Shown here piece after piece: positions 46,244-55,954 of a stretch of DNA of 64,000 nt. The stretch covers positions 1 to 64,000 of the forward strand of contig NZ_JAIEME010000010.1 of NCBI RefSeq assembly GCF_019752415.1, given 5' to 3'. The stretch's first letter is position 1; the number at the start of each line of letters is the position of its first letter. The notes under the pieces are model-generated. The model searched no databases. It saw only the letters and a list, made by a program, of their open reading frames with translations, and was not told where the DNA came from. Source of the stretch: Nitrosomonas sp. GTDB taxonomy: Bacteria > Pseudomonadota > Gammaproteobacteria > Burkholderiales > Nitrosomonadaceae. Position numbers and translations under genes: made by a program.

Positions 46244-46335
46244 TGGTTCTTAATTTTCTGCAATAAACAACGTACCATCATTTAAAATGTATTGAGCACT
46301 TCGCTAACCCGCTGTAGAAATTGACAGGGACCGCT

Positions 46336-49300
46336 ATGACTCCGACCATACAGCCACGTTTTATTCGATACAAGCGTCTGATTATCAGTCTCGGCGTGAT
46401 TGCGGCCCTAATCGTCATAGTGGGGGCGCTGATTACATTTTGGTTGCCGGGTTATGCCAAATCTCAACTCGAAACTCGTCTGTCTGAGGCTCTGCAACGC
46501 TCTGTCACCGTTACATCCATTGAAATAAAACCGCGTACCCTCGAGTTGATCGTACGGGGTTTTCGTATCGACGAGAAAGCTGGCGCCAATGAAACACGGA
46601 CAGCGCTTTTTTCTTTTAACAAGCTGACTGTCGATTTGAGTATTGAGTCACTCAAGCAGCGTGCGCCCGTCCTAACAGCAATCACTTTGATAGATCCGCA
46701 ATTGCGCCTGGTCCGGGAAAGCAAGGAGCAACTGAATATTTCCGATCTGCTGGAAAAATTCGGCCAACCTGAGGATGAAGAAAGCGCTGCGAGTGATCAG
46801 CGTAACCAATTCTCTATCAGCAATATTCGCATTGAGGGTGGCCGCTTTGAATTTATTGATCGATACAAAAATGCTGAGCATACAATCTCAGAAATAAATC
46901 TTGGCATTCCGGTTGTCGCCAATATCAATAGCGCCACGGCTGACTGGATTGAGCCGCACTTCAGCGCAAAGATTAACGGTGCGCCTTTTTCACTCGACGG
47001 CAAGTTGCGTCCTTTTGCGGCAAATCAGGAAGCAACATTGGCTGTTAAACTCAGTAATATTGATTTAACTCAGTTTGATCAATATGCGGACCTGCCAAAG
47101 GGAATCCATCTGCTTTCAGGTTATTTCGACAGCGATCTGCTGCTTACATTTGCTCAAGAATCCACTAAAGCACCTGACATTACCTTAACCGGCGCCACCA
47201 CATTCCGCCAAATGGCGATCAAAAATAGCGCAGTCGCCGCACCGTATCAGGCCGAGCTTAAGAAACTGAAAGTCGATTTGGCGCAAACCGATCTGACCGG
47301 TAAAAAACCATCGCAGGTCAAGCTGGCAATGGATCAAGTCGCCATCACCCGTGACGGCGAGAACGAACCGGCATTAGCGCTGGCAAAGTTGGCTATCGAT
47401 TCCATCACGGTCAATACAGCGGCACAGCGAATCGCATTAGGCAATATCACGCTGGATCGTTTGAGCACCACGTTGCGCCGCGATGCCAGCGGCACGATTG
47501 ATTTAACCCGATTGTTTAATTCCCTGGAAGCTCAGAATCCGGCGGAGTCTCAGATTCAAAGCCAAGCACGCATTCCTATTCCTGCCAGAAAACCGGGGCA
47601 TGCCAATGCCGGGATTAAACTGGCTGAAAAAGAGCCGGGATTGCCCGCGCCGGCACGCGCAGACAATAAACCTTGGGTGCCGCAGATCAAGAGCATTCAA
47701 CTCAAAGCTGCGACGCTACGCTATGAAGATCTCACACTGACAAAAATTACACCGATGATTGTCGATTCACTGGATCTAACCCTGGAAAGCATCGACCTGA
47801 ATGGCGTCAATCCGTTGAATCTGGTGCTGCAGGCGCAGGTAAACCAACATGGCAACTTTAAAGCCAATGGCTCGCTGGCTTGGGCGCCGCTTTCGGCTGA
47901 TTTAATGCTAAACCTTGATGCGGTTGACCTGGTGTCTTTACAAGGCTGGCTGGGTGATAGGCTGACGGCGCTTCTGACCAGCGGCGACATTTCCTTCACC
48001 GGAAATCTCAAAGCCAGTGGCAGTCCGCTGAAAATTCAGGCAAACGGGCAAGGGAAGCTCGCCAACTTCAATATCTTTGATAGTAAAAATGCTCATGATC
48101 TGCTGCGCTGGAAGAAGCTGGATATCAGTCATCTAAACTTTGTCAATGAGCCGTTGCTGCTGGATATCAGCACAATACACTTGAGTGATTTTTTTGCGCG
48201 CATGACGATTCTTCCGGATGGCAGCCTCAATCTCAAGCAAATTATTCAATCCGGCAAAACAGCGGAACCTGGTATTGCCGTTGCCGCTGTTGCACCCAGC
48301 GGTAACAGTTCAACCGCTTCAAAAGGCGAGACGCCCGTTCATATCGATAAGATTTTTCTGCAAAATGGCAGTATCAATTTCAATGACCGGTTTATTAAAC
48401 CGAATTACCGCGCAAATCTGACCGCGCTCTCGGGCCAGGTTGGTCCATTGTATCCCGGAAAATCCGGAAAAATAGACATACACGGCATGGTCAGCAAAAC
48501 AGCGCCGCTGCAAATTAGTGGAACGATAGATCCGTTCAGTGCCGAACTGCTGCTGGATATCGTTGCAAAAGTTAAAGATATCGATCTGCCGCCGTTTAGC
48601 CCTTATTCTGGAAAATACATTGGTTACGCGATTGAGAAAGGAAAATTGTCAGCCGATGTGAATTACCAAATCGAGAATGGTGCGTTGACAGCAGACAACA
48701 AAATCTTTCTGGATCAATTTACCCTGGGCGATAAAGTCGACAGTGAAGATGCCGTGTCTCTTCCGCTCAGCCTGGCGATTACGTTGCTTAAAAACAGCCG
48801 CGGTGAAATTAATCTCCATCTACCGCTCAAAGGATCTATTAATGATCCCCAATTTAACCTCGGGGATGTCATTTTCACCGCATTCACTAATCTGATCACC
48901 AAAGCGATCACCTCACCTTTTACATTACTGAGTTCCGTATTTGAAGGCGGCGAAGAATTATCCAAGATTTCCTTTACTCCCGGTTTTGCCGATATCGATG
49001 CGGAATCATTACAACGCCTGCAAACCTTATCCGAGGTTCTAAAAGATCGCCCATCACTGCAATTGGAAATTTCCGGTCACGTTGATCCGGCTGAAGACTA
49101 TGAAGGACTGAAGCTTGCCATCCTGCAAAACAAAGTAAAAGCGCAGAAATTAGCCGATGACGCCAAAAAAGGCATCGCCAGCGGCGCCATAACGGATATG
49201 ACATTAACCCCGGAAGAATATAGTAAATACCTTGAAATCGCCTACAAAAAAGAAGCTTTTGACAAACCCAAGAATGCGATCGGCCTAGCTAAGAGCCTTC

Positions 49301-49512
49301 CCGCCGCTGAAATGGAACAACTCATACTTGCGCATACCGTGATTACTGACAATGACTTACAAGTACTGGCAGAAAACCGCGCCAGCGCCGCGCGCAATTG
49401 GCTGATTGAAAAAGGGGAAATTTCCAGCGAGCGAATTTTTGTCGTGGGTATCGATGAAACGGAAGACAGCGATCAGAAGAGGGGCAGTTGGGCGGAGTTT
49501 TCATTGAAATAA
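46336..49512 (+). CDS. AsmA-like DUF748 protein with OmpA-like C-terminal region
   Basis: N-terminal TM, long repetitive beta-rich DUF748-type sequence (YAKSQLETRLSEALQRSVTVTSIEIKPRTLELIVRGFRI; PFSPYSGKYIGYAIEKGKLSADVNYQIENGAL), C-terminal OmpA-like region (LQLEISGHVDPAED...ENRASAARNWLIEKGEISSERIFVVG). Confidence 0.88.
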   Translation: MTPTIQPRFIRYKRLIISLGVIAALIVIVGALITFWLPGYAKSQLETRLSEALQRSVTVTSIEIKPRTLELIVRGFRIDEKAGANETRTALFSFNKLTVDLSIESLKQRAPVLTAITLIDPQLRLVRESKEQLNISDLLEKFGQPEDEESAASDQRNQFSISNIRIEGGRFEFIDRYKNAEHTISEINLGIPVVANINSATADWIEPHFSAKINGAPFSLDGKLRPFAANQEATLAVKLSNIDLTQFDQYADLPKGIHLLSGYFDSDLLLTFAQESTKAPDITLTGATTFRQMAIKNSAVAAPYQAELKKLKVDLAQTDLTGKKPSQVKLAMDQVAITRDGENEPALALAKLAIDSITVNTAAQRIALGNITLDRLSTTLRRDASGTIDLTRLFNSLEAQNPAESQIQSQARIPIPARKPGHANAGIKLAEKEPGLPAPARADNKPWVPQIKSIQLKAATLRYEDLTLTKITPMIVDSLDLTLESIDLNGVNPLNLVLQAQVNQHGNFKANGSLAWAPLSADLMLNLDAVDLVSLQGWLGDRLTALLTSGDISFTGNLKASGSPLKIQANGQGKLANFNIFDSKNAHDLLRWKKLDISHLNFVNEPLLLDISTIHLSDFFARMTILPDGSLNLKQIIQSGKTAEPGIAVAAVAPSGNSSTASKGETPVHIDKIFLQNGSINFNDRFIKPNYRANLTALSGQVGPLYPGKSGKIDIHGMVSKTAPLQISGTIDPFSAELLLDIVAKVKDIDLPPFSPYSGKYIGYAIEKGKLSADVNYQIENGALTADNKIFLDQFTLGDKVDSEDAVSLPLSLAITLLKNSRGEINLHLPLKGSINDPQFNLGDVIFTAFTNLITKAITSPFTLLSSVFEGGEELSKISFTPGFADIDAESLQRLQTLSEVLKDRPSLQLEISGHVDPAEDYEGLKLAILQNKVKAQKLADDAKKGIASGAITDMTLTPEEYSKYLEIAYKKEAFDKPKNAIGLAKSLPAAEMEQLILAHTVITDNDLQVLAENRASAARNWLIEKGEISSERIFVVGIDETEDSDQKRGSWAEFSLK

Positions 49513-49722
49513 GCAGGATTCTTCATGCTTGCACGAAAAGCGTCATGGACAATAACCCGGCAAACAAGGTTTTAGCGGCTTATCGATTTTCTACTAAATC
49601 GGAGCGGACGGCTGAATATTCATATTTCATCAATAGAGATCTCATTTATAAGTACAGAATAAAGCACAGTATGATTAATCATGCATAATCAATGCATCAC
49701 TTAAATCCATACACCTTCACGC

Positions 49723-52700
49723 TTAAGGCCGATTCCAAGATTCCCTCTCTTCTGCGATGTCTGCCGTTTCGATTTCACGATCCATGCCAACAATTTCATC
49801 TTCAATCCAAGACATCACATGCACATCGAAACCTTTACTCAACCATCCACGGAACTGATCACGCCTTGCTCTTAGATGCTGACTCCTTGGTCCACTCCAG
49901 CAACCGGAGTGAAAATTACAACTGATCCCACTTATAACTCCATCAAGATTTCGGTAATTCGTAAGTAATGCTCTTGTTAAAGCACCACCAAACTGGTCAT
50001 CCAGCGAGCTCGGTGCACAGTGCGCAATCATAGAAGCTCGTTCCTCCTGATCTTGTTCGATCCAATTTAGAATTAACTGGAGTGGAAATTCGGCAATTGG
50101 TGGTATTACTTTCTTTTCATCAAAACTGCCGAATCCACCTTTCAGCCAATTTAATATATCTACCCGCCATTCTGGAGCAATACTTAGCAGATGAGAAACA
50201 ACAATCCCCCACGCTTCTGTCGGACTCATACGGCATAGTGATTTGGCCAATGGTTCCACATAACCGTCATAGCTCAATCGGTAGTTGCTGCCCATTTGTT
50301 GCAAAAGCACATCAAGCAATGGCAGAGCTTTCGTTGAATCATAAGCTATCAGCTTATTACATACACTATGCCAATGGTAAGTATGCATGGTATCCAATTG
50401 CTCTTCAAAGTGAGTCTGTGCTGTTGACACTTTAAAAACAAAATCAGGATTCACAGGCCAAGCATTTTTCTCCAGAACCTGATCCAAAAGATCGACTAGA
50501 ACATTAGCTGAAGTTTGATCTTCACGTTTAGAAAGCAAGGTAAAAAGACGAACCAATTCATTTTGGGATACCGCCCGCCAGCTCATGCCATAACAAAGGC
50601 TGCTAAAAATATTTGATCCTATCCATCCCATTTCAAATGCATTCATGCATGCGATTAACACCTGATTGTCAAAACCGGAATACCAGACAAGATTGGCAAC
50701 ACGATTGGCGGTTTCTTCGTTAACCAGCAATCCAAGCAAAACCTCGCTCCATTTACTTGGATCTCGTTCCTTAAGACCAGCAAGATAGCCTCCAGCACAC
50801 TGAGAATTTATGGAATCGCTTTTGAATGAAAGTAAAGATATAAGGCGCTTGTTCTCCTTGTCCGCATTACACAAGGCTTGACCAAAAGTAAACAACGCCC
50901 CAGTCCTCGCGCTGCTGCTTACAAGTTTCGGTAACAGGCATTCAAATGCATTATCGTATCCAGCTACACGTTCCGCCAACGCTCGCACAAGCTTTTTAGG
51001 TCGAGTGTGCTTGCGAAGCTCATCTTCAACGCGATAGTCTTCCCATTCATCCCACGTTGTATCCAGGACATAGCGCTGGAAACGTGATGCCAAGTTACGC
51101 CTCGTAAGACGCCCTTCAAGACGTCGCAAGCGAAAATGCATTGATGAATCTTCTTCATCGCGATACCGACGTAACCTATCAATAAAAAAGTAATTTAACT
51201 TTTGAATATCAGTAATCAAGTCATTTGCAATTTGCTCAAGTATGGAAAAAACCGCCTCACGATGAGAGGGAATTTTCAATTGCTCACCCGCTGATTTGAT
51301 GATTGCCGAATTTGCTTCTCTGCGCAAAGCTTCATTCCAATCTCGTGTCTCATTGACCAAACAATCCCAGTAGCACTGAAATTCTTTACACCATTCATCA
51401 TTAGTCTGGGGGCACCAAAGAACAGCTCTTTCCTTGATTCCTTGGTGCTCAGGGCCAATCATCCGAAAATGCATTCCAGATGTATGCAGCGCTGATTCCG
51501 CTACTTTTAGTCCAATACGCTTTAATTCATCATCGTCTGAAGTAAGCATTTCTTTCAAGGCAGGCAGCCGCTCGGTTGGGCTTGCTTCGGTAGCTGCCCA
51601 TTCTGGACCGATCCGGAATAATGCCAATAAAGTACCTGTTGAATTGTTACTGTTCGTCGCATTCTCTGCAACCGCCAACCGAGCGAGTATTCTGGCCGCA
51701 CGAACAAATGTTGGTTTCCAAACGGCAATTTTCTCCAGCGTCCAAACGAAGCTTTGACGATTTTGCTCAAAGGAATAAAGTTCTTCCCGCGACCATGTGC
51801 CAAAAGTGTGCTCGATCAGCGCAAGAGTCGCTTCTGATTCGGCTTCTGCAAGAGTGGAAAGGAAAGATGTGCCTTTGTCCGAACAGAGAAAGTTACGATT
51901 TGCATAAATACCGTTCCGACGAAGAATTTCTCGAACAACTGGTGCAGCACAGGTGTCATGGGCGTAACGGAACATATCCATAAACCAGCCATGCAATGAT
52001 TCCGGCATGTTCTCAAACGCATTGACGAAATCAAAGCCACGTCCATACCAGTGCCAATATTCGCGCCACAAGTGGATGTGCAGTGCCCAGGGGACTATGA
52101 ATAAAGTTCGTGATCCTTGAAGAATTCGGCGTTCGCGTAATGACTGAACAATTTCCTGAAATCTGGACCAACTAACTGCCGAATCAGAGTGTGCGACAAG
52201 TTCTGAAATATACTTTGCCTCGGCACCCACCGGATCTTCAAAACCAAAACGGGAAAACAAAGCGATGTGCCTCATCACCAATGCAACTTGGCGAGCTTCA
52301 TCGCTCTGTTGTTTCGCATAACCAAAAAGAAAGCGATCCCAGATAGGTACAGTTGCAGGAGGTTTGAGAATATCATCTGGATTCGCTGCCAGATTCTCGC
52401 CAACTGCCTGAGCAACTCGAGGTGAACCTTCGCATATAGCCACCCAACGATCAAGATCCTTGTTTTTTCCAACGCAGTTTTCAAGGATTAATTTAATTGC
52501 TGGATCGGGAAGACGGGGGACTGAAACATATTCAATTTCCGAATCGCTACTTCTATTGCGCTCGTGATCAAGACTGATTAACTTCAATGACCCGCAGCGA
52601 TTCTTTAGATGTCCCCATATTTCTGACATTTCCTGTTCAGAAAGCTCGTCCAGAATCAAAATAAGCGGATATTTTGGGTTTTCACGCAACAATTCGCGAA

Positions 52701-53502
52701 ACAATTTTGTTTGTGAAAACTTGGAACCATGTTGAACGTAAAGAACACTGGGCGCGATTTCTTCCGAGCGCACTGCTTCTAATACTAGGCGAGTTTTCCC
52801 AATTCCCGGCTCACCCAATATCCGTATATGCTTTGTTTCTCCCTGCAATTTCTCTCGAAGCGAATTGATAAGCTGGGATTGATCTTCCGAAAGCGCAATT
52901 TGATTGCTCATATGTGCATGTTGCGACCACTCGGATACTGACAAGAAATCATCATCGCTGCCTCCCACTAAGGAAAGACGTAACGATGGGTAGCGTTCAA
53001 AATACGATGCAATTTGGGATTGCCCGAAAATTTCAATTTGCGCGCTTTTATCGGAAAACCCAGATTTCGCAAAAAGTTCCGAAATTAAGGATTGGCTATC
53101 ATTTCTTTGCTTAGGTGTCAGGTCAAGGCCAAAACAAACCAATAAATAGTGGCCGTCAAGCTCAAGAGTTCGCCTAACCTCGGATACCAATTCTCCTGAT
53201 TTGGATAACAATTCTTTTTCCAATGAGCTTCGCTGCCATGGCTTAAATGTTGTACCGGTTTTAAGCTGAAATCCATTTCTACCTACTTTCAAGAAAGTAT
53301 CTTGAGGCAAGCTATGAGCTGATTCTACTTGGGCATCAATTCCACCATCAGAGACATTAAGGTTTGCTGAAATAGTTACAGCATCAGGCCGTAAGCCAGC
53401 ATACCTTGCTTCGCAATGAAGTAATTCTCGAAACTTTGCAATAGCGGCTTCAGCACTGAGATTTCCTGTTAAATTTGGATTAAACGGCCCAGCTATACTC
53501 AT
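49723..53502 (-). CDS. Putative STAND-type NTPase with N-terminal PD-(D/E)xK nuclease-like domain (candidate defence protein)
   Basis: Start chosen at MSIAGPFN. DGGIDAQ (53329-53349) and FQLKTG (53254-53271) N-terminal pair; Walker A GEPGIGKT (52792-52815); Walker B LILILDE (52645-52665); long alpha-helical C-terminus. Confidence 0.72.
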   Translation of the reverse strand: MSIAGPFNPNLTGNLSAEAAIAKFRELLHCEARYAGLRPDAVTISANLNVSDGGIDAQVESAHSLPQDTFLKVGRNGFQLKTGTTFKPWQRSSLEKELLSKSGELVSEVRRTLELDGHYLLVCFGLDLTPKQRNDSQSLISELFAKSGFSDKSAQIEIFGQSQIASYFERYPSLRLSLVGGSDDDFLSVSEWSQHAHMSNQIALSEDQSQLINSLREKLQGETKHIRILGEPGIGKTRLVLEAVRSEEIAPSVLYVQHGSKFSQTKLFRELLRENPKYPLILILDELSEQEMSEIWGHLKNRCGSLKLISLDHERNRSSDSEIEYVSVPRLPDPAIKLILENCVGKNKDLDRWVAICEGSPRVAQAVGENLAANPDDILKPPATVPIWDRFLFGYAKQQSDEARQVALVMRHIALFSRFGFEDPVGAEAKYISELVAHSDSAVSWSRFQEIVQSLRERRILQGSRTLFIVPWALHIHLWREYWHWYGRGFDFVNAFENMPESLHGWFMDMFRYAHDTCAAPVVREILRRNGIYANRNFLCSDKGTSFLSTLAEAESEATLALIEHTFGTWSREELYSFEQNRQSFVWTLEKIAVWKPTFVRAARILARLAVAENATNSNNSTGTLLALFRIGPEWAATEASPTERLPALKEMLTSDDDELKRIGLKVAESALHTSGMHFRMIGPEHQGIKERAVLWCPQTNDEWCKEFQCYWDCLVNETRDWNEALRREANSAIIKSAGEQLKIPSHREAVFSILEQIANDLITDIQKLNYFFIDRLRRYRDEEDSSMHFRLRRLEGRLTRRNLASRFQRYVLDTTWDEWEDYRVEDELRKHTRPKKLVRALAERVAGYDNAFECLLPKLVSSSARTGALFTFGQALCNADKENKRLISLLSFKSDSINSQCAGGYLAGLKERDPSKWSEVLLGLLVNEETANRVANLVWYSGFDNQVLIACMNAFEMGWIGSNIFSSLCYGMSWRAVSQNELVRLFTLLSKREDQTSANVLVDLLDQVLEKNAWPVNPDFVFKVSTAQTHFEEQLDTMHTYHWHSVCNKLIAYDSTKALPLLDVLLQQMGSNYRLSYDGYVEPLAKSLCRMSPTEAWGIVVSHLLSIAPEWRVDILNWLKGGFGSFDEKKVIPPIAEFPLQLILNWIEQDQEERASMIAHCAPSSLDDQFGGALTRALLTNYRNLDGVISGISCNFHSGCWSGPRSQHLRARRDQFRGWLSKGFDVHVMSWIEDEIVGMDREIETADIAEERESWNRP

Positions 53503-53525
53503 ATAGTTTTTAATCCGTATATAAA

Positions 53526-53852
53526 CTAAGCCAAAGCACACCAAATTTTATTTTTTCCAATCTCCTCATGCATCCACACAGGATCAAGATCCGCGCCATT
53601 CGGCCAAGTGAGTGCGCCCAATTCTATTCGGACCTGAGTGAATAATTGTTTATCTTTCAGTGCGGCGAATATACCCGCCTGTTCACCGGAGATTAACTGC
53701 GTCATATCAACGGTACCGGTGGTGCCATCGTTGCAAGTCACGGAAAGGCAATAATTGGGCAGTACAGTCATTGAACGAATACGCCATGGTGCAACTGCTA
53801 TTCCTTCGATGAAATCTTGTTTAAAAATTGTGTCAAGTGATTGCCTGGTCAT
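53526..53852 (-). CDS. DUF2442-like protein
   Basis: 108 aa; VLPNYCLSVTCNDGTTGTVDMTQLIS...GIFAALKDKQLFTQVRIELGALTWPNGADLDPVWMHEEI. Confidence 0.85.
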   Translation of the reverse strand: MTRQSLDTIFKQDFIEGIAVAPWRIRSMTVLPNYCLSVTCNDGTTGTVDMTQLISGEQAGIFAALKDKQLFTQVRIELGALTWPNGADLDPVWMHEEIGKNKIWCALA

Positions 53853-53858
53853 CGTGTA

Positions 53859-54071
53859 TCAAGATTCTCTTGGAATATTTTCATCTTTCAGGTTTCTTCT
53901 CTGGTGCACTACAGCGAGTACAAAAATTACTTCGTCTTTTATCTCATAGATGATGCGATAGGAATACAGGAACAGCTCTCTCACATCTTCTTCATTGAGC
54001 TCCGGAACGACTCTTCCCATTTTTGGTAACCCGTTTAATTCATCGACTGCCTGCTGCGCCCAGATTACCAC
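53859..54071 (-). CDS. RelE/ParE-superfamily toxin, shortened
   Basis: 70 aa; GRVVPELNEEDVRELFLYSYRIIYEIKDEVIFVLAVVHQRRNL is the canonical ParE/RelE C-terminal half. Overlaps the antitoxin gene. Confidence 0.85.
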   Translation of the reverse strand: MVIWAQQAVDELNGLPKMGRVVPELNEEDVRELFLYSYRIIYEIKDEVIFVLAVVHQRRNLKDENIPRES

Positions 54072-54253
54072 GCATCAATTTCCCGTTTAAGTTGTTCGCT
54101 TGTCAGCGTTTCAGCTTGTGCGACGGCTTCTTGACCTTTTTTAATCTTATCCAGTACATAAAGCCGGTACATGATTTCATCCATGTCAGCATCCTCAGGC
54201 AACTGATTAATGACTTTCAGTACCTCCTGTTTTATTGCCAGCATATCGTTCAC
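54065..54253 (-). CDS. Antitoxin of a RelE/ParE-type module
   Basis: 62 aa; MNDMLAIKQEVLKVINQLPEDADMDEIMYRLYVLDKIKKGQEAVAQAETLTSEQLKREIDAW. Overlaps the toxin start by 7 bp. Confidence 0.82.
   Translation of the reverse strand: MNDMLAIKQEVLKVINQLPEDADMDEIMYRLYVLDKIKKGQEAVAQAETLTSEQLKREIDAW

Positions 54254-54289: not shown

Positions 54290-55954
<1,665 letters not shown>

Follow-up and report, generated by a model that had tools for sequence, protein, structure and literature searches.

Do the tightly packed genes beside ettA in a Nitrosomonas genome form a defence operon, or has one defence gene come to lie among unrelated residents? The question arises from a 64,000-nt stretch of DNA, hereafter the window (positions 1 to 64,000 of contig NZ_JAIEME010000010.1, Nitrosomonas sp., GCF_019752415.1), in which an original prediction had described an antitoxin gene, a RelE/ParE-like toxin gene, a DUF2442 gene and a gene for a large nuclease-STAND NTPase as one candidate operon. 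Open reading frame (ORF) calling recovered the four minus-strand genes head to tail at 49723-54253 as described, with a 7-bp antitoxin/toxin overlap and gaps of 6 bp (toxin to DUF2442) and 23 bp (DUF2442 to NTPase). The ATG start of the NTPase at 53502 is conserved in homologues from Candidatus Nitricoxidireducens (L003) and Nitrosomonas RBC022 (L004); an alternative TTG start at 53544 is possible. As argued below, sequence comparison makes it likely, in our view, that the 1259-aa product belongs to the PD-λ-4_A superfamily and works as a STAND immune receptor encoded by one gene. This gene would have been horizontally acquired into a variable site flanked by ettA and a gene of DUF748 type, and the toxin-antitoxin and DUF2442 genes upstream would be older residents.

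The four motifs named in the original prediction lie where it had placed them: DGGID at residues 52-56, FQLKTG from residue 78, GEPGIGKT from residue 230, and LILILDE, which contains D285 and E286. Across nine homologous nuclease-type N-termini, down to 19% identity with the window protein, only 12 columns are invariant, and D52, G53, G54, D56, Q79 and K81 are among them. G230, G233, G235, K236 and T237 of the P-loop are invariant in the family alignment, and none of the 17 members examined has lost the P-loop. Because they are kept across such divergent homologues, the nuclease and P-loop motifs are not chance occurrences. Read as a sequence pattern, D52GGID56...Q79-x-K81 is a D...QxK variant of the PD-(D/E)xK signature, with the conserved D...(E/Q)xK catalytic motif of Mrr-like nucleases present as D56 and Q79-x-K81. 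An hhalign comparison with Mrr_cat covered exactly the DGGID and QxK segments (probability 5%, pairwise E 0.0074; not significant alone), and no Pfam nuclease domain was matched. The N-terminus showed no similarity to the Cap4 nuclease (PF14130) in a weak test of two sequences only.

Downstream of this region is a P-loop of the NB-ARC/AAA_16 kind, with GEPGIGKT as Walker A and D285/E286 in Walker B; Pfam matched AAA_16 at E 1.1e-4 and, more weakly, NB-ARC at E 0.0087, neither of which reached the curated cut-off. A conserved block at residues 412-478 is the presumed winged-helix region, where the structure model is of low confidence. The AlphaFold model of residues 1-559 had a predicted local distance difference test (pLDDT) score of 51, and its top fold matches include the resistosomes of NRC4 and Sr35 as well as the AVAST5 filament and Apaf-1; given the low-confidence model and E values all above 0.001, we take these as a hint only. 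The C-terminal 759 residues (501-1259) are predicted to form an all-helical solenoid (pLDDT 74) free of strands of at least 3 residues, and its fold matches in the PDB are of the HEAT/ARM type (SF3B1, karyopherins and CAND1; E about 1e-5 to 1e-4). PDB sequence searches with the single protein and the family profile found no relevant structure; matches to apolipoprotein and Clp proteins were dismissed as compositional or generic P-loop hits.

Among PADLOC models, PD-Lambda-4_A was the best and only strong match (E 1.5e-40, residues 28-1007), at 137 bits compared to 1019-1129 bits for full-length members. PD-λ-4 is an E. coli defence system that emerged from a functional selection (Vassallo et al. 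2022, PMC9519451). No Avs/AVAST model matched the window protein at E<=1, and no solved Avs chain in the PDB was retrieved by sequence. The Avs-like option of the original prediction is therefore not borne out, and by sequence the window protein is a distant PD-λ-4_A relative and not an Avs. The broader proposal of a defence-type nuclease-STAND-helical protein holds for the motifs, the helical C-terminus and the PADLOC match, the nuclease fold and the winged helix being putative. PD-Lambda-4_B (PDLC03992) had no match in the window's genome (G000), nor in six further genomes that encode PD-λ-4_A-like proteins.

We note that the window's genome also holds a second, bona fide PD-λ-4_A gene (G000:C14:18189-22016, L026:6187-10017; 1048 bits), which a single in-frame TAA interrupts close to the N-terminus. 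Another genome (G021, L032) has an intact relative in a matching gene context.

Searches of Nitrosomonas relatives and of the wider class found a close copy of the NTPase in only one of 61 genomes, the window's own, and family members of about 1250-1375 aa. In a tree of 17 members, the window protein groups with the Candidatus Nitricoxidireducens protein (71% identity) and then with a prophage copy (L139) and L037 (47%). These belong to a supported clade of 11 members, among which are also proteins from plasmids of haloarchaea and cyanobacteria and three relatives of the HTH_37 type; the PD-λ-4_A proteins fall outside it. DGGID and QxK are both kept in 15 of the 17 tree members. Of the others, L029 has exchanged the nuclease for an α/β-hydrolase, as has a further homologue, L030, and the Thalassobaculum copy keeps QxK and lacks an exact DGGID match. 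An HTH_37 domain is added ahead of the nuclease in L034, and L036 and L038 have similar N-termini. Such N-terminal swaps follow the pattern of STAND defence proteins. Two of the homologues have unusual gene structures: the α/β-hydrolase-STAND gene of G028 (L030:5598-10309) is seemingly broken after the hydrolase domain by transposase-like ORFs, and a homologue on a Haloarcula marina plasmid (L135:8959-12736) carries the annotation of two genes that overlap, one for 346 aa ("ATP-binding") and one for 914 aa, which may be a natural split or a frameshift.

The neighbourhoods of these homologues agree with the defence or mobile context expected in the original prediction. Relatives are carried on bacterial and haloarchaeal plasmids, and a scan with an alignment of the closer family members found one on a viral contig (a P2-like prophage, L139), adjoining late-control-D-like, tape-measure-like and tail-chaperone-like genes, as named by sequence reading. 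When L037 and L032 served as queries, the viral scans found no relative, and phage records held no homologue of the NTPase. Elsewhere, a homologue overlaps a GmrSD-type gene by 4 bp (L033) or lies beside a Fic gene (L037), with other defence-type genes also found nearby. Some STAND proteins have roles in transcription or signalling, and the window protein might likewise be a regulator or a non-defence signalling ATPase of host physiology; the patchy occurrence, plasmid and prophage carriage, conserved nuclease motif and effector swaps, together with the homology, seen with PADLOC, to a defence protein obtained by experimental selection, make this very unlikely. A defence role of the NTPase is probable on these comparative grounds.

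We then asked how the gene came to its present position. The 3′ side of ettA was taken from 40 Nitrosomonas genomes and searched for the window's genes, with some stretches short because of contig ends. Antitoxin, toxin, DUF4160 or DUF2442 genes, whole or as fragments, occur there in 15 of the 40 genomes, and the NTPase is in none of those 15 ettA sites. NTPase matches near ettA in L130 and L131 were dropped, covering only about 37 residues of the P-loop. In one genome (G008, L094), ettA is followed by an identical antitoxin, a 99-aa toxin, DUF2442 and an unrelated 349-aa gene; in another (G019), by an orphan antitoxin, an RHH gene, a HEC-01A/HEC-01B pair (AAA_21 plus DUF4276, L095:785-2585) and the DUF748-type gene. 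The HEC-01 pair within this interval points to a defence hotspot. Homology between the window and G019 ends at 54061 and resumes at 49516, and that between the window and G008 ends at 53548, near the DUF2442 stop codon. These breakpoints show that the NTPase gene entered the interval separating DUF2442 from the DUF748-type gene. Its combination with toxin-antitoxin genes, which the original prediction had called unusual, is best understood as the result of insertion at a variable site that already existed.

Two further observations concern this site. The 349-aa protein of G008 (L094:1149-2198), which occupies the NTPase position, matched nothing in Pfam or PADLOC and is possibly new cargo. In the single-contig genome G027, ettA lies in two separated parts (C1:2334022-2335167 and C1:1663557-1664465), which may reflect a rearrangement or an assembly fault.

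The upstream genes themselves fit their original labels unevenly. The DUF2442 label is confirmed by Pfam (E 2.6e-10). The toxin matched ParE_toxin (E 3.1e-10), over profile positions 33-88 of 89 only: compared to the 99-aa copy in G008, 87 bp are missing in frame with AGTCG repeats at the flanks, a deletion that the original prediction had missed. The 29 internal residues lost, which belong to the presumed N-terminal helical region of ParE, leave an incomplete ParE fold, and from its sequence the ParE/RelE-like toxin is probably inactive. The small first gene had no significant Pfam match and is called an antitoxin by position only; its 62-aa product is 100% identical to that of G008, 89% to that of G019 and about 70% to those of G036, G006 and G430, all beside ettA. 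A PADLOC Cas8c match to it (E 0.009) was judged chance. Another DUF2442 match in the window's genome, close to the end of a contig (G000:C46:82-285, L001), is stronger (E 3.5e-21).

Could these genes nevertheless work with the NTPase? In a true four-gene operon, DUF2442 and the toxin-antitoxin pair would control or guard the NTPase, and phage attack on the antitoxin would fire both toxin and nuclease. The head-to-tail packing fits this, DUF2442 directly precedes the NTPase in L004 too, and defence systems with toxin-antitoxin-like parts have been found experimentally (PMC9519451). We nevertheless regard it as unlikely: the toxin is deleted, L004 has the order DUF4160-DUF2442-NTPase with no ParE pair, and such genes stand at ettA without the NTPase in 15 of the 40 genomes surveyed above. 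Toxin-antitoxin and DUF2442 genes are also absent near NTPase homologues in 16 other whole-genome neighbourhoods, five plasmid neighbourhoods and L003 (some stretches short), that is, beside every homologue examined except L004, so that the neighbourhood survey did not find the conserved partnership with the toxin-antitoxin pair and DUF2442. Moreover, the window and L004 align as a single continuous block from DUF2442 to the NTPase, and the DUF2442-NTPase pairing therefore counts as a single event.

In a smaller unit of two genes, DUF2442 would serve the NTPase as a transcriptional autorepressor or chaperone-like regulator. The window and L004 share a spacing of 23-26 bp between the two genes, and the DhiA antitoxin, a DUF2442 protein, represses its own promoter (PMC8198452). 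However, the window DUF2442 is closer to the G008 copy, which has no NTPase downstream (76% identity), than to that of L004 (67%), although the NTPase is 87% identical to that of L004, the closest syntenic relative; L003 lacks DUF2442 altogether. We judge such a two-gene unit improbable. A promoter and terminator scan of the locus found no more signals than in shuffled sequence, which neither backs nor contradicts co-transcription. About 5.4 kb downstream of its NTPase, L004 carries a further NTPase, whose P-loop reads GEGGIGKT and whose coding sequence is divided between two ORFs (L004:17185-19658).

The single-gene receptor inserted at the ettA site thus draws on the PD-Lambda-4_A match, the invariant motifs, the α-solenoid, the effector swaps, the patchy occurrence, the plasmid and prophage carriage, the overlap with a GmrSD gene in L033, the HEC-01 pair in the same interval, the toxin-antitoxin genes found there without the NTPase, and the toxin deletion. 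Several points weigh against it. Identity with PD-λ-4_A proteins is no more than about 20%, and PD-λ-4_B is absent; the Mrr_cat match is weak; and the model of the N-terminal part, with the putative nuclease fold and winged helix, is poor. The NTPase of L004, the nearest syntenic copy, is frameshifted near residue 958. The close DUF2442-NTPase spacing, kept in both genomes that hold the locus, leaves some room for a functional link.

Studied STAND systems combine an effector, ATP-driven oligomerisation and a sensor that binds a phage protein (PMC12724215, PMC12931631), and by analogy with these we propose the following as the most likely mechanism. At rest, the helical C-terminal sensor would keep the P-loop NTPase in a closed state. 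Once the sensor has bound a protein made by the phage, ATP-driven oligomerisation would be promoted, which would gather the N-terminal DGGID...QxK nuclease domains and switch on DNA cleavage, and the nuclease would probably act by abortive infection, with death of the infected cell. The NTPase gene would have arrived horizontally in a variable, defence-prone site, downstream of a decaying toxin-antitoxin cluster; the antitoxin, the deleted toxin and the DhiA-like DUF2442 protein would at most supply transcription or stability of the DNA site.

Table 1. Genes of the locus, its conserved flanks and the proposed parts of the NTPase protein
Feature	Position in window	Strand	Remarks
Small antitoxin-like protein	54065..54253	-	62 aa, GTG start; adjoins ettA
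ParE/RelE-like toxin	53859..54071	-	70 aa, GTG start; 87-bp in-frame internal deletion (29 residues)
DUF2442 protein, DhiA antitoxin homologue	53526..53852	-	108 aa; without DUF4160 (DhiT) partner
PD-λ-4_A-like nuclease-STAND NTPase-helical repeat protein	49723..53502	-	1259 aa, ATG, intact ORF
N-terminal effector, about residues 1-183 (domain end approximate)	52953..53502	-	D52GGID56 ... Q79LK81 PD-(D/E)xK-type motif, QxK variant
Core of the STAND-type NTPase with the presumed winged helix (residues 198-490, approximate)	52032..52911	-	Walker A 230-237, Walker B with D285, E286
All-helical solenoid, residues 501-1259, presumed phage-ligand sensor	49726..52002	-	Structure prediction and HEAT/ARM-type matches
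ettA-like ABC-F gene; conserved core gene flanking the variable site	54290..55954	-	
DUF748/AsmA-like gene, conserved opposite flank	46321..49512	+	Name by sequence reading

These results extend the barely studied PD-λ-4_A of E. coli to a modular family of STAND receptors that swap their N-terminal part, in bacteria and archaea, and name testable catalytic residues for it. They also illustrate that a head-to-tail "defence operon" can arise through insertion into a site with decaying toxin-antitoxin genes, and that gene packing alone is no proof of partnership. Further defence genes of ammonia oxidisers may be sought in the ettA-DUF748 interval.

Compared to known systems, the small upstream genes resemble two toxin-antitoxin modules in part. 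Like ParDE/RelBE, the window pair has a ParE_toxin domain and a small overlapping upstream gene; unlike them, its toxin carries the 29-codon in-frame deletion. DUF4160 and DUF2442 proteins are an experimentally shown type II toxin/antitoxin pair, DhiT/DhiA, in Dickeya dadantii (PMC8198452), and intact DUF4160-DUF2442 pairs stand beside ettA in L004, L104, L107, L108, L110 and others. The window shares the DUF2442 domain, with the ParE-like pair in place of DUF4160; as DUF4160 is present in L004, the window has a DhiA homologue without its DhiT.

The layout predicted for the window protein, in which an effector is followed by a STAND NTPase and a repeat sensor, is also that of Avs/AVAST proteins (types 1-5), and the AVAST5 filament is a weak fold match to its low-confidence N-terminal model; Avs proteins differ from it in sequence, by both PADLOC and the PDB. 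PD-λ-4_A is nearer, with homology over about 980 residues, a length of 1264-1278 aa compared to 1259 aa, and the same order of a DGGID...QxK N-terminus, a P-loop NTPase and a long C-terminal region; the window protein nevertheless lies in a separate supported clade, at low identity and without PD-λ-4_B. We tentatively suggest, as a possibility somewhat short of an even chance, that the clade of the window protein, with members from Nitrosomonas, Nitricoxidireducens, the cyanobacterial and haloarchaeal plasmids and the P2-like prophage (some fused to HTH), constitutes an undescribed family of single-gene STAND nuclease defence proteins in bacteria and archaea, separate from PD-λ-4 and Avs and with a phage ligand of its own.

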